Shown here: piece by piece, positions 29,589-58,712 of the stretch
How positions within the stretch are numbered: position 1 is the first letter of the stretch
Layout of the letters: every line of letters starts with the position of its first letter
Source: Romanomermis culicivorax
Taxonomy: Eukaryota > Nematoda > Enoplea > Mermithida > Mermithidae
Assembly: GCA_963922205.1 (NCBI GenBank)
Contig: CAWUHX010000010.1
Span: 1,674,001 to 1,738,000 of the forward strand
DNA: 64,000 nucleotides
Reading direction: 5' to 3'
Program-made: the position numbers and the translations under genes
Notes under the pieces: model-generated
What the model was told of the DNA's origin: nothing
Databases searched by the model: none
The model's input: only the letters and a program-made list of their open reading frames with translations

Positions 29589-29592
29589 AATT
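29589..29592. other. Target-site duplication AATT (left)
   Basis: AATT immediately precedes the TGTTG start of the left LTR and is repeated immediately after the CAACA end of the right LTR at 44214-44217. Four bp fits Ty3/gypsy integration. Confidence 0.85.
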
Positions 29593-30205
29593 TGTTGTGC
29601 AGGTCTTTCCTTAAGAGGCGTAAGAAAAGATCGGGTCTGAACTGACCTGTTAGAACTGATCCCTTGGCTAAGCCTCGGTGATAGTGCAACAGTCCGGTTA
29701 TCCCCAGACCTACAACAACAAAGATAAACTTTGTCTTAAATACGGGGGCCTTACCAAGGACCTCCGCAGTCTCCTAGATGAGACAAGGAATCCCCTCAGG
29801 GATAAACTTACTTGGGTATAACCCGTAAGGGGTTTCCCAAAGCTCACCTGAAGTAAGCCGGCGCCTGGGCCTCTGGCCCTCCGCCTTCGTCGATGCGAAT
29901 AATCTAAATAAATAAACGAATATATTAAGCAATATGTCCGACGAAATATGTAAAAAGAATGTGGGTATACCACAGTAAATAACTCATAAACAAAACAAGT
30001 TGCTGGGAAAATTGTATTTGGGGACGCCAGCAATATAGTCAAAATATAATAAAAAACGAGATAAAGCGAAGAATGATTTTCACTATCTTTTTCGGTCTTT
30101 CTGTGGCGCTCCATTCTATGCAAATGTCTGCGCCGCTGGTCGTCCCTTTCGTCGATTTGCATGGCGATTTTCCCACACGAATTGGCATCAACAGGGTGCC
30201 CAACA
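29593..30205 (-). repeat. 3' LTR of the retrotransposon (613 bp)
   Basis: Begins TGTTGTGCAGG and ends GTGCCCAACA on the plus strand. It aligns throughout with 43599-44213, with scattered substitutions and a small deletion near position 40. It carries the two octamer motifs also seen in the other LTRs (30118-30125 and 30155-30162). Confidence 0.95.
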
Positions 30206-30953
30206 TCCCTCGCGCGTCGAAACCGACCTATGGGAGGTAGAAAAAAAAAACTTTTGGCCGGGTTACCCCGGCATTAAAAAGAATTAATCAAAAAAGAAAA
30301 AATCTACAATTCCGGCTGACTCCTGATAAACAGTTTGTCTCACTCGGACTCCCGTTTCACAGTCTGTCCTAATAGGACTCCTGTGCTGGTCGTTGGACAC
30401 ATAGAATACCAAGGGCTTCGCCGCAATGGCTGGCAAGTGACGCCCATTTTGACCTCGGCGTTGATGGAATAACCTCCTGCCCTAAGGAGTACGACGTAGA
30501 CGTCGGTGCCGAATGTGGCCGGTTTCGGGCTCGGCCGCTCGGTCTGCATGCTGTGTCAATTCATTGGCTGTGGGACTAACCGCATGCAAATCGATTTCCC
30601 GCGTCTCTATCTTTTCTAAATTAAACTAAAATACGAGATTATATTACGATACAAAAAGATGACGCGGGAATGTACGAGTATCACAAAAATTTAAAATGCG
30701 CTAAAAATTTGAGCAAAAAATGTGGCCAAAAATTAAAAATATTTTTGCGGTTGCGTTTTGCACTGGTTTGTCAAAAAAGAAAATTTTTGATGGCCAGCAG
30801 CACCGAAATTTAAATAATATTTTTGGATTTTTTGTTTTTTGATTTTTTTTGGATTTTTGTGATTTTATTAGTGTTTTTGGATTTTGTATTTTATGAAATT
30901 AATAAAAATATATGCAAAAAGATAAATTTTTGAGCCAAAATTTGTGCGGCTTA
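30206..30953 (-). other. 3' non-coding region of the retrotransposon
   Basis: A T-rich part (30640-30950) precedes, in element order, a GC-richer block at about 30300-30560. The whole region, including the block, is also present in the deleted relative at 57412-58099 although neither is coding. This suggests it is needed in cis (3' processing, export, packaging or the plus-strand primer), which is inference. Confidence 0.7.
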
Positions 30954-33900
30954 TTACTGCTGCTGCCCGCCGCCTCGGTAACCTCCTCGAGGTCTACCTC
31001 GATAGTATCCCCTCTGACCTCTTTGGCCTCGGGTCTGACCTCCATCGTGGCCTTGATTTTGGCCTTGCTGACTTCCGCCGCGTCTACCAAGCGGCATGAA
31101 GTTCGGATTGTGGAACTGCACATCCGGGTCTTGACCTTGGTGTTGCCAGATTCCTCGGCCTCTGTAAGGTCGCTGAGGGCGCCCTCTGAAGCCTCCCCTG
31201 GGTTGACCTTGGTCATACCCCGGTCTAGCCCTGTACGGGGCCGGGTTTGAGAACATATCGTCTCTCCCCTGCTGCCTTTGACCACTGCTAGTGGAGCTGC
31301 TGCGTTGTGGTTTTTGAGTCCGGAAAGTTGAGTTGAGAGATTTTGATGAAATTGATTTTGACCGAGAAAGCTGACTTTTGTAGGAAGTGCTAGCAGCTTC
31401 ACTATATGACCTCTGGCTGGTCATAGCCGATGATTGTTGTATCGTCAGCGGTTGTTTCTTAGCCGGAGGGAGTCTAGGCACTTTAAACTTACTTGGGCTC
31501 TTGGCAGCCGTTCGCTAATATTTATCAGCTTGCGACCTGTCATCGCCTGGTGCTTTCCTCTTAACGCCCATCTGGTTTAACCTTTGCGAGCCCATAAAAA
31601 TATATTGATTAAAGGCTGCAATGTAGACATCGTCTACGCGGTTTCCCTGGGCCTCAACGACTAGTTGTCTGTTCGCAAACGAACACGCCTGGGCATACCA
31701 CCTACCAATTGCCGTTGGCGTGATCGGAGCGAAATCCAACTGTAGAAAGATCATTAGGGTCACATACCTAATGGCCGTAAAGACGTCTGAGGCATCGTAG
31801 TCCTGAAGCCATCTGGGGATGAGAATTAAAATGATCCATTCCCAGATTTCCTCAGGGATGTGCTCTCCGTCAAACATAAATCCGCCCTGCATTTCAAATT
31901 GCTGGCGGTAATTTTCATGAATTTCGGCCATAGCGTCATTGACCATTCTGTAAATGATCGGCCGTTCTTGGCCATCAAAGGCGAAATAATTGGCGACCTC
32001 TGGATTTTCAAATGAGATCGGCCCAATTAAACGCCTTTGTTCCCGTTGCCACTCCCAATAATCAATCAGAGTTTCGGCTAATTGACCAGGAGTGACAAAC
32101 TGCTGTGGTTCCCTTTCGGGTCTATTAGCTACCACATTCAGTTTGACCTTCTTGATCAATTTTTCCTCCGATTCAAGATCGGGCTTCACCAATACGCTTC
32201 CCGCAGGTTTGCTACTTCTTGCGGTATAGCTGGAGGGCACGGATTGGCTTTTGCCAGATGAAGTACTAACCTCTCCGCCGGTTTTCGATACCGTTCGCGT
32301 CTGAGTGTACGAAATTGTTGCAGTGGACCCTGTTGTCCTATCCGATTTTGTCTGGCCTTTGGAGGTCTCCGTTCGCGTCTGACTTTTTGCAGTCTCCGTC
32401 CTCGTCTGACTTTTTGAAGTCTCCGTTCTCGACTTTTGACTCGTCGAATATTCTGGGGTCGTGGTTTCCTCGGCCGTATCGTAGGCGTCGTTTTCAGATC
32501 CGGCGGCCGCTCCTTGTTGCTGCTGATCATGAGCTGCAAGTCTGCGTCATCTGGCCTTACCTATCCTCTTTCTGCGCCTTACCTTTTCCTTGGCCAAGTG
32601 TCGGATAAATTTTTCCGACATACCTTCAGCTAACATCTGCTGAACCTTGTCTGGGGAATAAATTCCAGGAATACCTTCCTCGGCAATTCTTCCCCTCCTC
32701 ATCAGCTCTGTCGCTGCAATAGCTGAATCTGAGCTGTCATCGGCTAGTGCCTGCTCCTTCAGCTTCCTTTGGATTGCCCTCTGATGCAGGAATTCCTGCT
32801 GCGTCAGCCTTTTCTGTTCTTGAATTTTGGTCTGTAGGGCCTCTTGCTTCGCTTGTCGGTCGTGATCCTTAGGATCTTTGGCCTTCACAGGTATCTCCTG
32901 GGATGCTTCCTGCATCTTCTCCAGTCTGACATCGATCCCCGACATTTTAGTAACTGCTTCATCAATTTGAGTCTGGATTTTCTCCTCCTCAATAGCCTGT
33001 TTCTGAGTCTTGGCCTCCATCGCATCCTTATTCTCTGATGTCTGGCCCTCAGATTCCAGAATTTCACCCTCTTCTTCTTCTTCAACATCCTCCTCTGAAC
33101 TGGACTCAGAGTCTGAATTTCGTATCTTCGGCAAGAGCTGTTTTACTTTAGCTGGTAACACAGCTGGTGCCGGAGGTACAGATTGCATAATGGTAACAAC
33201 TTCTGGCTCAGGCTCGGCCGGTTGAGGTATCTGAGCTATTTGAGTCGGCTGTGCCACCGCTGGTTGCCTTGGCAGCAGCACCACGACTACTACTGCAGCT
33301 GCTTGCGTAGCAGCAGTGTCCAAAGCTGGTGTAGCTTTGACCACTGGCGCTGGCACTTGCGGCTGCGTTTTAACCTGTCCCGTCCCTCCGGCTTGCGCCG
33401 TTTGGGAAGTAGAGGGACGATTTACCGGTACCTTAGATATTAACTCACCGGCTGGGGTATATGTTAGTGTATACCCGGGCATCTCCGAAGCAATTGTTCT
33501 CTCCCGGAAGCTTTTGCTAACAAACTCCGGTCTGAGCTCGAGCGGATTTCTCGGTGCGTACGTAATTGGGTAATCGGTCGGCGATGCGTCTTCCGTCATC
33601 GGATACCGCAGTCCCGGCGTCAAAGTCTCGAAGCCTACGTAGTAAAAAGTTACATAAAAGTAAGGGTTTACCTTGTAGGCTCCGTCCTTCAATAACGATT
33701 TGTCGTCGCCGATTTGCAAAATTTCCTCGGCTTCTCGAAATCGTAATGGGACAAATCCGAACTGATTTTGCCATGCCTATACCCCTTTTTTAGATGGAAA
33801 GCGGGGTTCCGATGGCGATAGCGTTGCTGCTAGCTCTAAATAATAAGCCAGGTGGTCGCCTGACTTCCAGGACATTCGCTTTATCATCTCCTGGCCTTCT

Positions 33901-36280
33901 CTAGTATAACTGTTTAAAAAGTTATAGTTGAGCGGAGCGCTAGTTTCGTAATCCCACTCCGCTCTCGAGTGAGGCCATGCCAAATGATAGGCCAATGGCA
34001 TAAATTTACAGATGACCTCTAACTCCGCAAAGTTTCGCTCATCTTACATACCTGAAATTTTTGCTATGTTTGGCGTATAAAAATTGGTCTTGTAGTCCTG
34101 TCTATGACCTTCGATACCCACTGGGTAGTGGTTGTTTGCGGAAAACACCTCTTCAGGAATTTGATCTGGCTTCCCGGCCTGTTGCCAGTATAGCTTGGCG
34201 TGTTCATATAAAGTCAAGGAAATCTTACCGTCTAAATCCCAATAGGTTCCACCTGACCTGAGATTTTCCAAGATATCCTTTGAAATGTTAACCCAGTCTG
34301 GTATCTGGACGTCCTGGATTTCGTCGGGATCACTATCTGTAGTGTACCCATCGTCCTTCATCAGTTTGTTATCTCTTGGGAGCAGTGGATAAAAACCACT
34401 TGGTAGTTGAACTCCCTGATGACGCACGGGGTTACACTCCGTGGATGCGGTATAATAACCGGTGTTATTTCCCTGCATCTGTACAGCCCAACGGTTATAC
34501 ATTTCACATTTCATCATGTGATAGACCATATTCGGCTGTACCTGATCGGTTTCCATGACTGGGGTACCTAGCCCCATTTCTCTATTCACGTTGCCCGGAA
34601 TCATTAAGTATTGTTGGTAAAAATGTAGGGCAATGGTATTGATCTGTTTGGGATCAACCTTGTCATGGTCGAAAATCTGCATTTGCATGAGCAGCTGATT
34701 GGCCATGCCATAGTGAATCGCGGCAAACATGACCAATAAGGAGTAGTATGCGTCTAGAGCGGCGTACCTAAGCTCTTCCGGCAATATACCTCTTTTGGCA
34801 AACTGATCACGGTTCGCCTTTAATGAAAAGTCATACTGATAGGGGCCCACATCTATCAGATAGAATTCCGTGAATAGTCCCTTTAACCGAAAGGTTTCGG
34901 GACAGATACCTGTCTGAAAACATTTTTTCTCCAGGTTTACCCCTACCATGGTTAGAGCGAAACGGTCTAAATCAAAGTATCGACCCTTGGTCTTTCTAAG
35001 AAATTCCTGTAAGGGCACAGTTTTATCTCTGTCCTTATTATCTCGCCCTGCACCACATACGTTATAGATACTTACCAAGTCCTCCAACACCGAATATCCG
35101 GCGAACAACATGTCGGAATTCAAAAAATCGTGGAGGCTGGTCCATTCTTTGAGCATCATCGATGTCGTATCAATAACGTAGGTTTGACCGTTTGTTAACG
35201 CGAAGCTCACGTATCGGGCAAATTGCTTTCCCATTGGATTGTCGACCTCTCTCGTTTTAAACAAGGCGGCGACTTTATCCTGGTTGACTTTTTCGACATC
35301 GAATCCACAAACTGGCTGTCCTCTGAAGATTGATACTTCTCGGATAAAGTGGAGTGTCTGGCTGACTTTCCCGATGTCTACCAATTTTGGTTCCTTGGGA
35401 TTAGCCGGCCAGTACCCAAATGTGGCTTTGAACCACTGATCCAGTTCATGGATTCGCACGGCCCTTTTGACGTTATAATCTAAACATAAGATACTATTAA
35501 TTTTAGTGTTTATTCCCCTTTTCTCAGTGCATTTTCGGGTCTATACTACACCAGCACCACAACACCAAGCGGGTTAAGTTTCGCAGAAATTAAATTTAGT
35601 GCAGGTTGTTAGGTGAGCCACTGATATACAAACATTGAGCTGGTAGGCAACTAACACCTTACCAAATCTTACCCTTGCTACCTCTATATGTTGGGGAGGG
35701 TAGACCTGATCCGATTGTCCACCACTTGATCGGACACCAATCTCTGACCAGCTGCTTGAGCGACCAACTACGCTCCATTTATGGCGCTGTATTTAGAATT
35801 TTTATAGTGCTCGAGATTGATAATTTTTAATGAATTTGATATCGAAAAAGTGATATGATTTGGTTTGATTTGAAAATAAATAATTTTTGATAAATTTTTG
35901 AATGATAAAACTTGAATGGGCTGAACCCAAGGTTCTAGGTTTCCCTTGAATCGTATAGCTCTCGGTGGTATCAGGTATATTTCCAAGTTTGGAAATTCCC
36001 TGCTTGGCTTCGAGCTTCCGCTTCTCAGTACTCCCATTTTTCGTTTCCTCTAAGTTCCAACCTCGTCTGCCCTTTGGGGCGCCGAGCTGGTCTTCCAGTG
36101 ACTTCTGGGCATTACCTGCGGTTTCCAAGAATATTTGATAAAATAAGTTCGAAACTTACCGTCAATGAAGAAAAAACGATTATCTTGGCGGTGCTGGGCC
36201 CTGCCATATTCGACGTGGCGCTCTGTGTACGACCACTCGCGCGTCGGAGCTTGTTGGCGGTTCCGCGCGCCTTTTCCCAT
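30954..36280 (-). CDS. Third gene of the retrotransposon: DEDDy 3'-5' exonuclease with RGG tail
   Basis: Exon 36280-36160 (ATG, 40 codons plus one base, donor G/GTAAGT) splices in phase to 35479 (TATGTTTAG acceptor). The frame then runs to 30954, about 1500 codons. Counting from 35459, residues 50-240 form an RNase D/WRN/Mut-7-type exonuclease: ExoI GFDVE (D54, E56), Exo[12 protein letters not shown] (D127) and Exo[15 protein letters not shown] (Y232, D236), so all DEDDy residues are present. Uncharacterised segments follow, then a low-complexity acidic/Gln region, [13 protein letters not shown] repeats near 32350-32450, a predicted globular part (32240-31515), and an RGG/Gly-Arg-rich end at 31190-30960. 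Four in-frame stops interrupt it (34044 TAA, 33777 TAG, 32547 TGA, 31515 TAG) with no frameshift. It occupies the env position, but I see no signal peptide or membrane anchor. Confidence 0.8.
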
Positions 36281-36344
36281 TTCTTTTTGCTTCGAAATGT
36301 TTTTCTTTTTCGAATAAATTTATAAATTTTAAAAATTTTTGAAT

Positions 36345-36360
36345 GCTGAAAAAGTTTAAT
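36345..36360 (-). promoter_or_regulatory. Splice acceptor before the third gene
   Basis: On the minus strand TTAAACTTTTTCAG ends at 36346, with the exon starting at 36345, 65 nt upstream of the ATG at 36280. It is a near-ideal nematode 3' splice site and would accept the donor in the 5' LTR at 43855. Confidence 0.6.
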
Positions 36361-36701
36361 CTAGCAATTTTGCTAATTTCCTTTTTATCGTGATTCGGGG
36401 AATATTTTACTTCTTCCTTTGGATGGAAGTTTAGAATTCAGATAAGCGGGGCAGCTATACTTTGATTTTAGAAAAAATGAAAAATTTGAAAATTAATTTT
36501 TTGGAAAAAATCGGAAATATTTTGGGTTGTCACTTTGGTCTAAAATTCCGAAGAATTTTTCCCAAAGTCTGATATAAATATGAAAAATTTACAAAATTAA
36601 TACGAATAATACACAAACGCGATAAATATTACAAAATAATACATTCTTAATTAAAATTAGTACCTACGCGCGCGAGATATGTACATAATTTTAAAAAAAA
36701 T

Positions 36702-39700
36702 TCAGCGCGAGATCGCGCATAGATTCGCCTTGAGCGAATTTCCAAATGATTTCATTTGGTTTGGCGCTCCAGTCGTAACTGTTTGTGCCATATTGGAAAA
36801 TGACATATTTTCGTCACGTGGCGCGTCCTGATTGGCTCGCGCTATTCGCGGCAAGACCCTAGTGGTCTCGTAACGAAAATGTTTCAACCTGCTGACTGAA
36901 ACTGTTTGGCGATTTAGCGGGTTGTCCCAATGTACAATGGTGACAACGTTCTCCACTTCTCGTGAAATGTCCGTAACTTTGAACGGACCGGACCATGGTA
37001 GTCCTAATTTTTTCTGCTTGTCTACTTTGAGCAGAACCCAGTCCTTTTCTTTAAACCCATTTTGCTTGGACTTTTTATCGAAGTATTTCTTCGATTTTTC
37101 GGCAGCACTCTGGATATTTTTAGCAATATCCTCGTATAAGTTGACTAAATGATTGGTCAACACAAATTTGTATGCCTCTGCATTGCTGTCCGGCATTACA
37201 ATATCATATGCTTTCGATAAGTTTAACCCGAAGGTTGCCTCGTGACCTCTAAGCAATGAAAATGGGGATTGCCCCGTGGCTGCATGTGGTGTGGCATTAT
37301 ATGCAAACACCATGGCTCTCAAGTATCTCGGCCAATTATCTTTTTCCTCTATGGCCACCTTTCTGAGCTGTATGATGAGTGTCTGATTAAACCTTTCTAC
37401 CATACCATTACCTTGTGGGTGGTAGGCTGTTGTATAAATTTTTTGACACTCTAGTAACTTGCAGATCTCCTTCATCAGATCTGAGGTAAAACAACCTCCT
37501 CTATCGCTGAGTAGTCTCCGTGGAGTCCCATGCCTAAATACAATAGATTGTAGAAAAGTATCTACAACGGTGCTAGCTGACTGATCCGGGATCAGTTCAG
37601 CTTCAACCCACTTTGTAAAATAGTCTTGAAAGACTATGACATACGGTCTCTTCTCACTGAGTGGAGAAATACCCACGATGTCCACTGATACAATGTCAAA
37701 AGGACCTTGTGGAATAATTGATATCAGTGGAGGAATTTCCGTGTTTCCCTGATTAGCCATTTGACAAACTGGACAAAACTTGATCCAGTGCCTGACATCC
37801 TTTTCAATTCCAGGCCACCAGAACCGTTTTTTAATCATAGCAAGGGTCCTTTTGAACCCCTGATGAGTCATCATTACGGCACCGTGGTACTGGTGCAAAG
37901 TATTGTCCCTAAGGCAGGATGGGACGACCACCTGATCGTCCGATCCCTGTCCGGCTTCGCGGTATAACACTTCATTCCGGATATAAAATCCACTGTGATA
38001 CTTGGTTGTCCCATTTGGACCCAATCTATCAAAGTATGGTCGTAGTACCTCATCTTTTCTCTGCAAGAGGGCCATGAGATCATCTCTAATTAGCCCTTTT
38101 GGCAACTCATTTTCTTTGGGGTCTGCCAAAGTAAACTCCTGTTCTTTCTCTGGGTATAACCAGGTAACTCTTTTTTCCTTACTTTTTTCCTGGTTTCCCT
38201 TACTTACCTTTTCGTTACCCTGATTGCCATCAGGCTGGATCTGAGCCTGATCACTCTTCTCCGCTTCTTTCGCCATGCTCCTTGTAGTTACGGCATTTAC
38301 CAAGTCTGCAGGCGAGTTTGATTCTGGATCACCCTCAGAATGTTCTGGATAAATTTGGCTGAATCTCGGACTTATTTCAGTCCTCTGATTTTTCTTACCT
38401 GTTGGCTCTGGATATAACAGAGTACCGTCTTCAGGATTCCGATCTGTCAGAATTCTGAATCTCTTTACCAAATTGAGATGCTTTTTCTCAATTAGCTGTG
38501 CCTCAAGATCTTTCAGATTTTCAGACTCTCGTTTATCCTTTGAGAACATATGTTCCCATTTTGGCGGTATCTTTTCCGCTTGATCGTCTGGTTCATCCAT
38601 CCTGGACAAAAAGTCTGCCATGGCATTTTGTTTTCCAGGCACATACTCTAGCTTATGGTTGAACTGAGAGATGAATGAGTACCATCTCTTCAACTTACCA
38701 TTGGTCATGGCGTTGACCTTAATTGACAACAAAGGTTTGTGATCAGTTCTTATGATCACTCTATGACCTACTAGGTAGTGCTTGTATAACTTTAAACCAT
38801 ACACTATTGCCAAGCACTCCCTTTCCGTGGCTGACCACTTTTTCTCGTCCGCTTTTAAAATTCTGCTATTATAAGCAATTACCCAGTGGTCGGACTTGGT
38901 CTCCTGGTAAAGGACTGCTCCTAGTGCTGTTCCGCTGGCATCTGTCTGAAGGACAAAGTCTGCAGACCCGTCCAAAACCGGATACCTAAGGAATGGCACA
39001 GACAATAATGCTTCTTTCAGGCTCCTAAAAGCCTGATGGTGAACCTCCGTGACTTCCCAAACACAGTTCTTCCCAGTTAGTTTATACAACGGTTCGGCAT
39101 GTTTAGCTAACCTTGGTATGAACTTCTTACACCACTGCAACATACCTAAAAACCTTTGCAGTTTACGTTTAGACTCTGGGAATGGGAAATCATTAATAGC
39201 TTTGACCTTTTTCGGATCTGGGGAAACTCCATCCGAGTTTAAGATATGTCCTAAAAAATGAACTCTCTCAGGCAGGAATTCACACTTCTCCGGCTTCAAG
39301 GTCAAATGAGCCTTTCTTAGAGCTTGCAGGACTAGCTCTAGATTAACTAGGTGTTCCTCAAACGTATTTGAGAACACGATAATATCGTCTATATAAACTA
39401 GACAGATCTTCCACACATATGGATGCAAAACTCTTTCCATCATACGCTGAAATTTGGCTGGCACATTCTTTAGGCCAAAGGGCATGACTTTAAATTGATA
39501 AAGCCCTTCTTGGCATATGAAAGCAGTTTTTTCTTTGCTTTCCTCATCCATTGGCACTTGCCAATACCCTGATTTGAGATCTAAGGTGGTATAAAACTTC
39601 GCTTTACCTAAACAGTCTAGATAGTCATCCATTCTAGGAATGGGATACTTATCGTCCTTGGTAACGTCATTTATACCCCTAAAGTCCACTACTGGTCGCT

Positions 39701-42077
39701 TGGTACCATCCTTTTTACCTACAAGGAATAACGGAGCTGCCCAAGGCGACTTTGATGGCTCAATTACACCCTTTCTGAGCATATCTTGCACATGCTCACG
39801 AACATGTGGCCGTAAATTTATAGCAGTCCTGTGGTACCTTTTTGCCACAGGGGCTGCATCGCCTGTATTGATTTTACAGGTCAAGTAGGGTGTAGTAGTT
39901 GGAGGATCATTGGGCAAGCTGAACATGTCTCTATATTTTGCGAGACATCCTAGAGCTCGTTCCAATTGCTCTGATGGTATGTTGGATTTAGCCAGCATAT
40001 TGTTCAAAGCTTCCTTGAATGCTTTCTCATCTGATTGAGGAGCTTCAGGTCTAGCTTGAACTGCACAAGTTTGCAGCTTCTCCAAATCCTCAACTATCTT
40101 CCCCTTAAGTTGATGTTGGTTATCAGTATCGCACAACACTGAATTAGTATGGCCAATTATTTGATTTCTTTTCAAATAGCATCCTGATCCTGTGTTGTTG
40201 GATACCATAACAACAAAATCATCTTTTGTGCCATCTACTATGGTACTATCAATGTGGAACCTTTCTTCATTCTCTTCAGACTCTATTATGATTCCATTAA
40301 GGCGATTTTCGCCTACCTTATCCCAAAGTTTTGCCCTCAGAAGTATATCAGTACCACTAGGTAAGTAGATGGGGTTCACACTCACCACTGGCACCAAAAC
40401 CTTTAGCAGGCAAATCTTTGGCTGACATTGGTCGGCAGCGCTCATTGTGGATTCCGTGGCGCTCGTAGTCATGACCTCTCCGCAATTTGATTGGGGCTGG
40501 TCCGGTGTCACGTATATCCGTTGTTGACGGTTGTTGAGCATCATCGTCTTATTCCTGAAATCTATTATGGCTCCTACCTGAGGATGAGCCAAAAAGTCTG
40601 TACCCACAATTACATTTTCACCTGCTTCAGGAATTACAATTGCTTTAACGGGGAACTGTCCACATAATGTATCCATCCTAAATTGGATATACCCATGGGC
40701 TTGGACTGTCTTACCGTTGGCTACAGTAACATTTAAAATCCTTGGATATTCAGTGTAATCCGGGCCCAAAGTTTCTTTCAGAAACTTAGCGGACATGACA
40801 GTACACTGAGCTCCTGTGTCAATTAAAGCCAGTGTCTTACGACCTCCTATAACAACCTCAATGTGGAATGGGGCTGTCCTGGGGTACGTATCCAGCAAAT
40901 GTTGTTCCTGAGGACTAGCTGGTGTGCCTCTCCTTACTATTTGTACTGATGGTACTACAGGTTGTGGTGCAATTGCATTCATTTGCACAATACTACCTAA
41001 TACAACATTTGGGCAACTCACTCTCTGATTTACTTCACCTAAAGGACTCATTTGAGATTGCCTTGCAACCATAACACTCGAATAATCCTTCTGAGGTGGC
41101 TGATTTGTGAATTGACCCTGTTGAAGAGTCTGAGTCGGACCCGTAATAGCCTGAGGTGGCTGAGGATGCTGTAATGCAGCTTGCTGTTGGTATTGCTGCA
41201 TCTGTTGGAACTGCTTCTGCAGCTCCTTCTGCTTTTTAAACTCCAGGAATTCATTATAATCTGAATTCTGTTGGTAACTCTCGTGGCTATCCTGATAACC
41301 TGAATAGCCTATATTATAAGCACCTCTGCCTCTACTGTTGAAATTGGCATTAGGGTAACCTCCTCTTCCTCTATAGTTACCTCTAGCAAAAGTGTTGAAG
41401 CCTCCCCTGTTGAAGGTAGGGAAGCTGGCTCTGCCTCTGCTCCTGCGTTCGGACAATACTCTCAATGTCCTGCAGTCTGCAGTATTATGTGTTATGTTCT
41501 TATGGAACTCACACCATGGCTTTGTCGGATCTCGGGAACCTTGACCTCCCTGACTGGTACTAGGTATGGCCACATCAGACCGATTTTCCGCTTGCCTGTT
41601 ATCAACCTTTTGCTGGAGGTGGGCGAACCTTTCGACCAGTTGTACCATCTCTTTAGAAATTTTCAATAGAAGAGATTCTTTCTTACCTTTTTCGGTCTGA
41701 GCCCTAGGGGCTTCCCGAACTGGAATCTCCTCTATCTCAGGAGAATCACTCCTTGACCTTTGGGTTTGGGCCTGTACCTGATTACCTACAGTTTGATATG
41801 GTTGCCGAAACCTTTGTCTCTGGCCTTGTTGATATCCTTCTGACTGGTTCCTAGCAACTACGGCAATTTCAGGATCATGCCCACTAGGCATACCTACTTC
41901 ATTAATTACAATAGGATCCTGTTGTGTACCCTTAGGTCCATATCTCTGAAAGGCATTCCTATATCTACGTTCAATGTCATGAACTTCAACTGCTAGGTCA
42001 TACCAGGTTCTAAAGGTATGTTTAATTCTTAAGTTCAGACTGGAACGTGGGGTCACTCTTATATATGAAGGTGTCAA
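36702..42077 (-). CDS. pol: Retrotransposon pol (late gag part, protease, RT, RNase H, integrase)
   Basis: 1791 codons without a stop. From the N-terminus: the end of the gag region, including a C-x2-H-x4-H-x4-C finger (C189, H192, H197, C202); an Arg/Gly- and Gln-rich linker; an aspartic protease (DTG at 420-422); reverse transcriptase about 745-920, with catalytic LDLKSGYWQ and YIDD at 895-898; RNase H about 1040-1160 (D1046, E1087, D1112); and integrase with an HHCC finger (C1435, C1438) and a DDE core D1466, D1525, E1561 with the classical D-35-E spacing. A GPY/F-like LPWSGPF segment follows and there is no chromodomain. The first codon of the open stretch is not ATG. The frame overlaps gag by 56 nt in +1 phase, so it is presumably made as a Gag-Pol fusion. 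Order RT-RNaseH-IN is that of Ty3/gypsy. Confidence 0.95.
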   Translation of the reverse strand: MTPSYIRVTPRSSLNLRIKHTFRTWYDLAVEVHDIERRYRNAFQRYGPKGTQQDPIVINEVGMPSGHDPEIAVVARNQSEGYQQGQRQRFRQPYQTVGNQVQAQTQRSRSDSPEIEEIPVREAPRAQTEKGKKESLLLKISKEMVQLVERFAHLQQKVDNRQAENRSDVAIPSTSQGGQGSRDPTKPWCEFHKNITHNTADCRTLRVLSERRSRGRASFPTFNRGGFNTFARGNYRGRGGYPNANFNSRGRGAYNIGYSGYQDSHESYQQNSDYNEFLEFKKQKELQKQFQQMQQYQQQAALQHPQPPQAITGPTQTLQQGQFTNQPPQKDYSSVMVARQSQMSPLGEVNQRVSCPNVVLGSIVQMNAIAPQPVVPSVQIVRRGTPASPQEQHLLDTYPRTAPFHIEVVIGGRKTLALIDTGAQCTVMSAKFLKETLGPDYTEYPRILNVTVANGKTVQAHGYIQFRMDTLCGQFPVKAIVIPEAGENVIVGTDFLAHPQVGAIIDFRNKTMMLNNRQQRIYVTPDQPQSNCGEVMTTSATESTMSAADQCQPKICLLKVLVPVVSVNPIYLPSGTDILLRAKLWDKVGENRLNGIIIESEENEERFHIDSTIVDGTKDDFVVMVSNNTGSGCYLKRNQIIGHTNSVLCDTDNQHQLKGKIVEDLEKLQTCAVQARPEAPQSDEKAFKEALNNMLAKSNIPSEQLERALGCLAKYRDMFSLPNDPPTTTPYLTCKINTGDAAPVAKRYHRTAINLRPHVREHVQDMLRKGVIEPSKSPWAAPLFLVGKKDGTKRPVVDFRGINDVTKDDKYPIPRMDDYLDCLGKAKFYTTLDLKSGYWQVPMDEESKEKTAFICQEGLYQFKVMPFGLKNVPAKFQRMMERVLHPYVWKICLVYIDDIIVFSNTFEEHLVNLELVLQALRKAHLTLKPEKCEFLPERVHFLGHILNSDGVSPDPKKVKAINDFPFPESKRKLQRFLGMLQWCKKFIPRLAKHAEPLYKLTGKNCVWEVTEVHHQAFRSLKEALLSVPFLRYPVLDGSADFVLQTDASGTALGAVLYQETKSDHWVIAYNSRILKADEKKWSATERECLAIVYGLKLYKHYLVGHRVIIRTDHKPLLSIKVNAMTNGKLKRWYSFISQFNHKLEYVPGKQNAMADFLSRMDEPDDQAEKIPPKWEHMFSKDKRESENLKDLEAQLIEKKHLNLVKRFRILTDRNPEDGTLLYPEPTGKKNQRTEISPRFSQIYPEHSEGDPESNSPADLVNAVTTRSMAKEAEKSDQAQIQPDGNQGNEKVSKGNQEKSKEKRVTWLYPEKEQEFTLADPKENELPKGLIRDDLMALLQRKDEVLRPYFDRLGPNGTTKYHSGFYIRNEVLYREAGQGSDDQVVVPSCLRDNTLHQYHGAVMMTHQGFKRTLAMIKKRFWWPGIEKDVRHWIKFCPVCQMANQGNTEIPPLISIIPQGPFDIVSVDIVGISPLSEKRPYVIVFQDYFTKWVEAELIPDQSASTVVDTFLQSIVFRHGTPRRLLSDRGGCFTSDLMKEICKLLECQKIYTTAYHPQGNGMVERFNQTLIIQLRKVAIEEKDNWPRYLRAMVFAYNATPHAATGQSPFSLLRGHEATFGLNLSKAYDIVMPDSNAEAYKFVLTNHLVNLYEDIAKNIQSAAEKSKKYFDKKSKQNGFKEKDWVLLKVDKQKKLGLPWSGPFKVTDISREVENVVTIVHWDNPLNRQTVSVSRLKHFRYETTRVLPRIARANQDAPRDENMSFSNMAQTVTTGAPNQMKSFGNSLKANLCAISR

Positions 42078-43502
42078 TGATCAGTCTCTGTTTAGACTGA
42101 TAGTCTAAATCACCTTTGACCAGTTCCACTAATATACTGACCCTTTTCAAAAACTCTACGGCCTGTTCGTTGGGTCTTTGTTGGATCTCAAATAATTCCC
42201 TGGTTAACATTTCCAGGTTACATTCAGGTGCAAAGATATTTATGATGGCTCTCCTGGCCTCCCTATAGGTCATGTTGTCTCCTGCAACAGCCTTCGGTCT
42301 ACCTTTAGAAAGCCTCAGCAGTGCTTCATACTTAGCTGATTCGGGTGTATCCCTATGGAATTCCCCTTCAAGTGCTGTTAAGAAGCTAAGCACCTGCTGA
42401 TTTACCATACCCTCATCTAAAAGTTTGGGTAACACACCTTTAACGATATTCCTGACTACAATCTCTTGTGCCAAATTATTTGATGGCACTTCCCTCTGAT
42501 CATAAGCTGCTGTTAATACTGGATCAAGATCAGAGTTCAGGGATTGCAGCATAACTCTATTTGGATCTCGTTGAGGTGGTACACCTCCTTGATATGATGG
42601 CATATTGTCTTTGTCAAACCTGTAATCCCTATATGGGAAACATGCCAATTGATCTGGTCTAAGGGTATTTGGATCAACTATATTTCCTCTACCATCATAG
42701 ACCACTCTAGTTAAAGTTGGATGCTGCGAAGCTATCTGATTTTGATTCCTGAAGTCTGCTGATTGCTCAGCTCTTTCGAATCAAAGATCTCTAGCTGGAC
42801 CTCTCCAACTTTTGGGCTCAAAGTTAAGCCTTTGCCCTTCATCATATTCAGGCCTATTACTAGGCCCTGCGCCTGCATTCATTTCAGCAGCGAGACGGTT
42901 GTCTCTTTCTGCACCCCTATTACATGGTCTAACCTGTCTATCCAGCTCCTGTCGGCGCCTGTCGGCTTCCCTTTTATTGTCCTCAGTGGCGGCATTCGCG
43001 ATGATGTCGAATAAGGCTTCAACAGTCCCTTTCAATTCGCGTAGCTGTGTCGCCAACTCTTGATTGGACATCTCAGAAGCTCTTTCCTGCGGTTGGAATC
43101 GCTCTTGCTCCTGGGGAATCCTCTCTAATCGTTGATCGATTTCGGGGTCCCTTTCTTCCAAATTTGGTCGAATTTCGGGCGTAATGACATCCCTTTTCAG
43201 TCCTGCTAATTGGACCTTTGGCGGCGGTGACCTTTTAAAATTTCGCTGCGGCGGTCCATCGGCGGATCGATGGCAATCGCTGGTGGGCGGTCAATTGGTA
43301 CGCCTGCATCTTGCGGCGTAAAATGCATTGCATTCTGCTGCAATGGTTGAACCCTCGCGGGAGTTTGATCTGGGATCACTGGGTCCGGAGCAGCATGCCG
43401 TTGCTGATCTCCGTCTCCCAAATTGACTAGATTCCCAGCACTCGCCACTCTGGGTGGTGATCTATGTAAAGTATTACCTCTCGGTATCCTTTCATTAGGC
43501 AT
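42022..43502 (-). CDS. gag: Retrotransposon gag, in three consecutive open pieces
   Basis: ATG at 43502 opens a 98-codon piece ending at 43206. A second piece in the -1 frame is open from about 43295 to a TGA at 42781. A third continues in that same frame after the TGA to 42022 (includes a capsid-like helical region, [16 protein letters not shown] and [11 protein letters not shown]). The frame change could occur at the heptamer T TTA AAA (43239-43233), a classical -1 slippery sequence. The pol overlap (42077-42022) requires a +1 shift, for which CTT AAG A (42033-42027) is a candidate. Each break could instead be a plain mutation. The coiled, charged second piece and the capsid-like third piece match a gag precursor; the nucleocapsid finger is in the pol frame. 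Confidence 0.8.
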
Positions 43503-43579: not shown

Positions 43580-43596
43580 GGAGTTAAAAGCCACCA
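43580..43596 (-). other. Primer-binding site candidate
   Basis: TGGTGGCTTTTAACTCC starts two bases inside the 5' LTR, the position and leading TGG expected for pairing to a tRNA 3' end. I could not identify the tRNA. Confidence 0.55.
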
Positions 43597-43598
43597 CT

Positions 43599-44213
43599 TG
43601 TTGTGCAGGTCTTTCCTTAAGAGGCGTAAGAAAAGATGTATCTGGTCTGAACTGACCTGTTAGAACTGATCCCTTGGCTAAGCCTCGGTGATAGTGCAAC
43701 AGTCTGGTTCCCCAGACCTACAACAACAAAGAGAACCCTAACTCTAAATGCGGGGGCCTTACCAAGGACCTCCGCAGTCTCCTAGCTGAGACAAGGAATC
43801 CCCTCAGGGATAAACTTACGTGGGTATAACCCGAAAGGGGTTTCCCAACGCTTACCTGGTGTAAGCCGGCGCCTGGGCCTCTGGCACTCCGCCTTCGTCG
43901 ATGCGAATAGTCTAAATGAATAAACAAATATATTAAACAATAAGTCCGACGAAATATGTAAAAGAATGTGGGTATACCACAGTATATAATAAGTAAACAA
44001 GACGAGTTTGCTGGGAAAATTATATTTGGGGACGCCAGCAATATAACCAAAATATAATAAAAACGAGATAAAGTGAAGAATGATTTTCACTCTCATTTTT
44101 GGTCTTTCTTTGGCGCTCCACTTCTATGCAAATGTCTGCGCCGCTGATCGTCCCTTTCGTCGATTTGCATGTCGATTTCCCCACACGAATTGGCATCAAC
44201 AGGGTGCCCAACA
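43599..44213 (-). repeat. 5' LTR of the retrotransposon (615 bp)
   Basis: Same ends as the 3' LTR. On the minus strand it contains inverted octamers (44163-44170 and 44126-44133) in U3, AT-rich TTATTATATTTT-like core promoter sequence about 180 nt in, and a strong splice donor CAG/GTAAGC at 43856/43855 downstream of the presumed start. A short frame from the LTR to 43514 precedes the gag ATG and may act as an upstream ORF. Confidence 0.95.
43850..43858 (-). promoter_or_regulatory. Splice donor within the 5' LTR
   Basis: CAG/GTAAGC on the minus strand. With the acceptor at 36345 it would create a spliced subgenomic RNA that skips gag and pol and brings the 5' leader to the third gene. Confidence 0.55.
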
Positions 44214-44217
44214 AATT
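44214..44217. other. Target-site duplication AATT (right)
   Basis: Matches 29589-29592 exactly, directly abutting the CAACA end. Confidence 0.85.
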
Positions 44218-45038: not shown

Positions 45039-45686
45039 TCAATCCAATGATTTGATACGAAAACATGATGATTTCAGTGTTAGAAATTTAAGTGTCGGAA
45101 ACAAAGTCAGCAAATATCTGATATCCTCTATAACTCTATTATTATCGAATATGATTTCGTTCAAACCTGGATAAATATTTTCTATCCGTTTCATTAGAAA
45201 ATCCGGCGTATCATCCTTTAATTGATAAATCAAAGGATACGGTTCTTCGACGATCAAAATTTGCAAGTTCGAGAAAATTTTTGACAAAGCGTCGAACAAA
45301 TTTTTATCCGTTATAAAACATTTCCCGAAACTCAGTTCCTCAATATTGTTCAATTTTGTACATTCGAAAATGCTGAAAAGTTGAATTTGCGGGAAAATTT
45401 GCAACCGTCGGAAAGTTTTGAAATGAATTTTCTTCAAATTTTCTTTTTTACAGTGTTTCAGTAAAATTTCCATTTCGGAACCGAAATCGACCCAATAAGA
45501 CGATAGAGTATACCCCGGATTCAAAGCCAACAAATCATCCGGTAAAGAAATCGAACGTTTTTGTGACCAAATCGATGAAATCAATTTACGAAATCGTCTA
45601 TCGACCGATTCGATTTTTAGACGATCGTTCAACGATAAATGGGAAAAAATTGAAATCAAAATGTGATCTGGGAGATAAGCCAACAT
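45039..45686 (-). CDS. F-box protein, 215 residues
   Basis: ATG at 45686 followed at once by an F-box (residues 1-42: LPDHILISIFSHLSLNDRLK and RRFRKLISS), the Skp1-binding motif of SCF ubiquitin-ligase substrate receptors. The remainder has spaced leucine-rich strands (NIEELSFGKCFITD, LQILIVEEP, LKFLTLKSS) like degenerate LRRs, suited to substrate binding. Nematode genomes carry large F-box families, and a single-exon LRR type is usual among them. It is somewhat short, so an additional 3' exon cannot be excluded. An open frame of the ORF extends 8 codons further upstream without an ATG. Confidence 0.75.
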   Translation of the reverse strand: MLAYLPDHILISIFSHLSLNDRLKIESVDRRFRKLISSIWSQKRSISLPDDLLALNPGYTLSSYWVDFGSEMEILLKHCKKENLKKIHFKTFRRLQIFPQIQLFSIFECTKLNNIEELSFGKCFITDKNLFDALSKIFSNLQILIVEEPYPLIYQLKDDTPDFLMKRIENIYPGLNEIIFDNNRVIEDIRYLLTLFPTLKFLTLKSSCFRIKSLD

Positions 45687-46167
45687 TTTTTGAACGAAAA
45701 ATATTTTCAAACACGACTAGAGTGTGTTTTAGCCCAATTGGAAACTGTTCCAGACGAAATTTAGAATGTTGTTTCTGCGGTGGGCAAGATTCTTGATGGA
45801 AGCTGAAAATCTCTGGCTCGCATGGAGCTTGTTTATGGCTAAATACAGACAGCTGACATTCCGAGAAATTTTTCTCGTTGAATGAATTATATTCCAAAGA
45901 ACATTCTGAAGCCATTTCGCAGAGACGAAAAGTAGGAGAAGAGTTTGCACGGATTTGGAACCAAGCGTGTTACTTGACGATTTCAGGCTGCAGGTTGATG
46001 ATTCCTCAAGCATCAGAAATTAGCGAATTTTGTGTTGAGAGGAGGAGTTTGAAAAATCTCGCTCACTGAACATTAATGAAGAAAAATGGTTAGAATGGAA
46101 GAAAAATGCGTAGTAACCCTGATGAATGCCTCTTTTCTAACTTAGTTTTTGGACCATAATGGTTTGA

Positions 46168-57394: not shown

Positions 57395-58712
57395 TGTTGG
57401 GCACCCTGTGTACTACATCTGTTGGGCATTTATATTTTTACTAATTTCATAAAATACAAAACCCAAAAACACTAATAAAATTACTAAAATCCAAAAAAAA
57501 TCAAAAAACCACAAAATCCAAAAACATTATTTAAAATTTTCGGTGCTGCTGGCCAACCAAAATTTTCTTCTTGACAAAACCGGTGCAGAAGGCAACCACA
57601 AAAATATTTTTAAATTTTTGGCCACAATTTTTTGCTCAATTTTTAGCCCATTTTTAATTTTGTGATACTCGTACATTCCCGCATCGTCTTTATTTTATCG
57701 TGAATATCATATCCTATTTTGATTTAATTTAGAAAAATAGAGACACCGGAAAGATTTTCATGCAATTAGACCAATGACCAACGACTTGCCACAACATGCA
57801 GACCAAGCAACTGAACCCGAAATCGACCCAATTCGGCACTGACATCATCATCAAACTCCTTAGGACAGGAGGTATTTGATCAAAGCTGAGGTCAAAATGG
57901 GCGTCACTTGCCAGCCATCGCCGCGAAGTCCTTGGTATTCGTTGTGTCCAACAACCATTACGGGAGTCTGAGTGAGACAGACTGTGAAAACGGGAGTCAA
58001 CCGGATTGGTAGATTTTTTGGTTAATTCTTTTAATGCCGGGGTAACCCGGCCAAAAGTTTTTTTCTACCTCCCGTAGGTCGGTTTCGATGCGAGAGGGAT
58101 GTTGGGCACCCTGTTGATGGCAAGCCGCATTGGGAAATCGCCATGCAAATCAAAGAAATGGACGACCAGTGGCGCAAACATTTGCATAGAAATGGAGCCC
58201 CACAGAAAGACGAAAAAGTGATAGTGAAATAATTCTTTCACATATTACGGTTTTTATTATATTTTGATATATTTTTGCTGGCGTCCATTAAAAATATTCC
58301 CAGCAACATCTTATTTTGCATAAAAATAATAGTGGTCATTCCACCTTTTTTCTATAATTCGTCAGATCTATTGCTTCATATATTTATTTATTCTTTAGAT
58401 TCGACTATTCGAGGACAGCAGAGGGCCAAGGGCCCAGGCGCCAGCTTGCAGTCAGCAAGCTCTGGAAAACCTGTTAGGGGATCCAATCAAGTAAGTCTAT
58501 CCCTGAGGGGATTCCTTGTCTCAGCTAAGAGACTGTGGAGCTCTCTGGTGAGGCCCCGCATTTAAAGTTAAATTATCTTTGTTGTTGTAGGTCTGGGTAA
58601 CCGGACTGTTGCACTATCACCGAGGCTTAGCCAAGGGAGTAGTTCTAACAGGTCAGTTCAGACCAGAAGCCTCCATCTTTTCTTAAACTCCTAAAAAAAG
58701 ACCTGCACAACA
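57395..58712 (+). mobile_element. Internally deleted relative of the 14.6-kb retrotransposon
   Basis: On the plus strand it begins with only the first 15 bp of the LTR (TGTTGGGCACCCTGT). It then jumps into the 3' non-coding part of the internal region (57427-58099, matching the reverse of 30910-30206) and ends with a full LTR at 58100-58712. A 25-bp duplication of flank plus LTR start lies at the left junction. All gag, pol and third-gene sequence is missing. The TATC duplication on both sides shows that it inserted as a unit or was deleted after insertion. Confidence 0.85.
58100..58712 (+). repeat. 3' LTR of the deleted element (613 bp)
   Basis: Starts TGTTGGGCACCCTGTTGATG and ends CCTGCACAACA. 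Aligns along its length with the two other LTRs but is more diverged, and keeps both octamers (58143-58150 and 58180-58187). Confidence 0.9.

Follow-up and report, generated by a model that had tools for sequence, protein, structure and literature searches.

The question raised by this locus is whether a long terminal repeat (LTR) retrotransposon of the nematode Romanomermis culicivorax carries, in the env position, a gene for a 3′-5′ exonuclease of the DEDDy type. The stretch analysed (the window) is 64,000 nucleotides of contig CAWUHX010000010.1, in which repeat search found an LTR pair delimiting a 14.6 kb element of the Ty3/gypsy type; the element lies on the minus strand, as do all of its features given below in window coordinates. 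We conclude, with a probability of about 0.78, that it belongs to a Ty3/gypsy-type family in which the gene at the env position, open reading frame 3 (ORF3), specifies a long protein that begins with a DEDDy (RNase D/WRN/Mut-7-like) domain and ends in an arginine-glycine (RG)-rich tail. An initial annotation had proposed an LTR element in which integrase is followed by a DEDDy-like domain, and the LTR pair, the pol domains and the profile similarity bear this out.

The DEDDy-like domain lies in the first part of ORF3 (34044..35479), recognised by its ORF, motifs and profile comparison. All five DEDDy residues are present in the window copy: D54 (codon 35298-35300) and E56 (35292-35294) in GFDVE, D127 (35079-35081) in SVLEDL, and Y232 (34764-34766) and D236 (34752-34754) in YAALD, numbered from 35459. 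The motifs GFDVE, D127 and YAALD are as initially annotated, and the ORF at 34044-35459 is indeed open, with 471 codons counted from a GTG. When the residues of the ORF were shuffled 20,000 times, a DEDDy-like regular expression matched 2 of the products; it was composed after the sequence had been seen, and the profile-profile comparison provides the independent test. An 8-row alignment (A6) compared with 10 DEDDy rows (eight sequences, plus a Mut-7 homologue as two pieces) gave a score of 36.7 (P 5.1e-5), with the signal centred on ExoIII, and the window domain alone scored 35.8. None of 200 column-shuffled decoys reached 36.7, the top decoy scoring 19.3, and controls from the element itself scored 9.2-16.7 (eight pol pieces) and 11.7 (the ORF3 middle domain) against the same profile. 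At a relaxed threshold, D54/E56, D127, Y232 and D236 aligned, as read by eye, with D28/E30, D85, Y151 and D155 of RNase D, and the ExoI-ExoII-ExoIII order and residues were the same as in the cellular DEDDy exonucleases RNase D, WRN, EXD2 and the Mut-7 homologue. The spacing differs from that of RNase D, with 73 versus 57 residues between D54 and D127 and 105 versus 66 between D127 and Y232. Judged by its sequence, the domain is homologous to the DEDDy exonuclease family, a homology carried by ExoIII; it very probably has the DEDDy fold, and in an intact copy it is probably catalytic.

The domain is found in many copies. The exonuclease alignment query matched 69 proteins, at least 68 of them labelled R. 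culicivorax, and the exonuclease ORF query matched 19, at least 18 so labelled. Of the 69 domain-bearing proteins, matches extend in 17 to gag, pol or leader regions and in 31 to the ORF3 sequence downstream of the domain; 8 fall in both groups and 29 in neither. With the exonuclease attached to gag, pol or leader sequence in those 17 paralogue models, the arrangement is one that copies share; the one-off insertion of a host gene considered in the initial annotation, with no other element copies bearing the domain, does not occur. We regard the exonuclease domain as a regular component of this multi-copy family, of which the window copy is an old, partly decayed member: its age is evident from the gag-like region (42022..43502), whose sequence is divided between two reading frames and interrupted by an in-frame stop at 42783.

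The catalytic residues are not uniformly kept across the copies. D54 is found in 20 of 28 rows, E56 in 23 of 30, D127 in 13 of 13, Y232 in 7 of 8 and D236 in 3 of 7 (the other four having Glu in three and Asn in one), the rows being gene-model fragments, some with splice artefacts. The codons of D54 and E56 start within CpG, the Asn/Lys changes expected from CpG decay account for 4 of 8 losses at D54 and 5 of 7 at E56, and of the nematodes surveyed, R. culicivorax reportedly shows the highest level of DNA methylation (PMC8821070). The losses can therefore be explained by CpG decay of dead copies, and we read the residue variation mainly as such decay.

The predicted ORF3 protein extends beyond the 471-codon frame at both ends. 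Upstream, a 121-nucleotide stretch with an ATG at 36280 (36160..36280) ends at the splice donor GTAAGT (36159), and a TTTAG ending at 35480 forms the matching acceptor of a proposed GT..AG intron of 680 nt (35480..36159). The junction peptide predicted from the leader and the frame at 35479 agrees with paralogue model P0005; several paralogue models join the two stretches, and the leader stretch is matched by 7 of the 69 domain-bearing proteins. From the DNA and these gene models, a leader exon is apparently spliced onto the main ORF3 exon. Between leader and exonuclease, 35958-36143 is matched by three paralogue gene models (P0003, P0011 and P0035) and is perhaps an alternative exon.

Downstream, the frame from 35480 to a tandem TAA TAA (30956/30953) has four in-frame stops (34046, 33779, 32549 and 31517) in about 4.5 kb, whereas the other two frames have 70 and 91. 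In a comparison with 41 paralogue proteins, the stop at 32549 is matched by an amino acid in five of them and the one at 31517 in seven; the sole relative that aligns at 33779 shows a gap there, and no relative aligns across 34046. Frame analysis and paralogue matches delimit a linker and a Pro/Gln/Ala/Glu/Lys-rich stretch (32550..34043, with the composition determined for 32550-33776), followed by a middle domain (31518..32549) and, by frame analysis and composition, the RG-rich tail (30954..31517, up to the TAA TAA), which has 11 RG and 4 RGG within 186 codons. A query with 31518-32240 of the middle domain matched 23 proteins, all labelled R. culicivorax; no relatives outside this species and no PDB match were found for 31518-32549. 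Pfam gave no envelope family in the three downstream ORF3 stretches scanned, 33720-34043 lying outside the scan. We infer that an intact ORF3 would have about 1,500 codons, made up of the leader, the exonuclease domain, the Pro/Gln/Ala/Glu/Lys-rich stretch, the middle domain and the RG-rich tail. The DEDDy-like domain is thus probably the head of a longer ORF3 and not a free 471-aa gene. The initially annotated coordinates end too soon, as the frame continues to 30956/30953, and translation probably does not begin with the GTG at 35459.

Several observations weigh against the preferred reading and have to be set against alternative explanations. Some concern the nature of the domain. The element domain is too distant from cellular DEDDy exonucleases to be found by Pfam or PDB sequence search, and NCBIfam and PHROGs likewise gave no significant match; the ExoI-ExoII half alone gave no significant profile score. 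The check by AlphaFold proposed in the initial annotation was carried out and gave no support: the two models had a mean pLDDT (predicted local distance difference test) of 31.5 and 53.1, and fold searches with the second listed weak unrelated matches and no exonuclease, a result of little weight at such confidence. Coincidental motifs in a domain of another kind are nevertheless improbable, with the five catalytic positions in register and a profile score reached by neither the 200 decoys nor any of the nine element controls. A serious rival, though an unlikely one, is that the protein has the DEDD fold without cutting and serves the element particle by binding RNA or as a structural component. 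Maelstrom and EXD1, which have a DEDD fold without cutting, are a precedent (PMC5408684), and both the variation at D54, E56 and D236 and the RG-rich tail would fit such a protein. Against it, all five residues are intact in a window copy that is otherwise decayed, D127 is invariant, and the losses elsewhere are explicable by CpG decay of dead copies in a strongly methylated species.

Other observations concern the extent and the origin of ORF3. The region might consist of several exons or of separate short genes, with the exonuclease protein ending near 34046: paralogue gene models skip parts of it, GT donor-like sites are found near some of the stops, and paralogue model P0044 terminates shortly ahead of the point corresponding to the first stop. 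We consider this rather unlikely, since the frame is so nearly free of stops compared with the other two and relatives have residues opposite two of the four; gene prediction is, in our judgement, also prone to invent introns in decayed copies. A nested origin, with ORF3 as a mobile or viral unit in its own right inside the LTR element, is very unlikely. An 18-nt inverted repeat of 89% identity (30284-30301 / 36300-36317) does bracket ORF3, and the observed/expected CpG ratio is unequal, at 0.53 in pol (36702-42080) versus 0.87 in the exonuclease exon (34047-35479). However, the bracketing repeat is AT-rich and of low complexity, no other repeat bracketing ORF3 was found in a search of 30206-36702, and a nested unit does not sit well with the 17 paralogue models in which upstream element parts are joined to the exonuclease.

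If ORF3 is a long protein headed by a DEDDy domain, it would be made, like env, from spliced RNA and separately from gag-pol. D54, E56, D127 and D236 would hold two metal ions and Y232 would help to place the water, and the domain could in this way trim nucleotides off the 3′ ends of nucleic acid bound by the RG-rich tail. Candidate substrates are the 3′ end of the element RNA, the end of the primer tRNA, cDNA ends and host small RNAs. Because of the RG-rich tail we slightly favour RNA as the main substrate; a role in counter-silencing is doubtful. R. culicivorax is reported to be without PRG-1/Piwi and without detectable 5′-triphosphate small RNAs (PMC4323106), and with these features and the highest DNA methylation among surveyed nematodes it offers, as far as the reports go, a distinct silencing background. 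A further proposal would have an LTR element in this Piwi-less nematode gain an RNA-directed exonuclease independently, join it to a tail that binds RNA, express it by splicing and use it against silencing by trimming host small RNAs; this is a long shot.

The layout itself is not new, contrary to the initial annotation, which knew of no described element of this kind. DEDDy exonuclease ORF3s downstream of pol were described in 2017 in LTR elements of bdelloid rotifers, in the Juno (Juno1, Juno2) and Vesta (Vesta2, Vesta5) clades (PMC5408684). According to that report they were acquired at least twice, in Juno and in Vesta, and such exonucleases are also present in the Penelope-like Athena elements; its authors argue for exchange between retroelements and propose 3′-end processing as the function, with silencing and env-like roles mentioned without evidence. 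By these descriptions, the R. culicivorax element resembles Juno and Vesta in being an LTR element with gag, pol (protease, reverse transcriptase, RNase H and integrase) and an RNase D-like DEDDy ORF3 downstream of integrase. It differs in its nematode host and, as predicted here, in an ORF3 much longer than that described for Juno and Vesta, with an RG-rich tail and a leader exon. All Juno and Vesta members are described as having a dUTPase between protease and reverse transcriptase (PMC5408684), whereas Pfam found none in the R. culicivorax element (39003-42077, E up to 1); we therefore do not file it as a member of either clade. The rotifer motif is given as DEED in the same report, whereas in the R. 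culicivorax family the ExoII Asp is invariant (13 of 13) and the ExoIII Asp varies.

More distant parallels are known. The Terminons, giant Penelope-like retroelements of the bdelloid Athena group, likewise have a DEDDy exonuclease as an accessory gene, but they are not LTR elements; they are telomere-associated and have other ORFs (PMC6431247). Some Dada DNA transposons, in Laccaria and Ectocarpus, also carry a DEDDy exonuclease domain, in their case within the DDE transposase (PMC3706591), and the DnaQ-like exonuclease has been called a well-known accessory domain of LTR elements (PMC6338049). No description of the R. culicivorax element family was found in open-licence full-text literature in PubMed Central, which is weak evidence of absence. 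What is new is thus the nematode host, together with the predicted long RG-tailed ORF3 and the putative leader exon. This suggests that bdelloid rotifers are not alone in having LTR elements with an exonuclease ORF3. A general role for such ORF3s, in the retroelement cycle or against silencing, thereby becomes likelier and can be tested in a second phylum.

The remaining anatomy of the element is that of Ty3/gypsy. The 5′ LTR (43599..44213) and the 3′ LTR (29593..30205) are 92.7% identical across 613 aligned sites (Kimura two-parameter distance 0.077), the aligned stretches extending up to 3 bases beyond the LTR ends. As read from the printed sequence, along with the LTR ends themselves, AATT is found on both outer flanks (44214-44217 and 29589-29592), forming a short target-site duplication. 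Pol (36702..42077) is open and encodes, in the order found by Pfam, aspartyl protease, reverse transcriptase, RNase H, H2C2 and integrase core, upstream of ORF3 and on the same strand. This order, the LTR pair and the short target-site duplication fit Ty3/gypsy (Metaviridae), in which the element is placed by anatomy. Pfam found no gag family in the two pieces of the gag region scanned. The gag and pol open frames overlap at 42025-42080 in different frames, a possible frameshift site. A stretch starting with TGG at 43580-43598, two bases inside the 5′ LTR end, is a candidate primer-binding site; the window has no tRNA gene with which to compare it. Adjoining the element on the same strand is a 225-codon open frame (45039-45716), which may encode an F-box-like protein. 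A related element fragment lies in the opposite orientation at 57431-58712, with 80.2% identity over 1,348 columns to 29593-30912, that is, to the 3′ LTR and the 3′ region.
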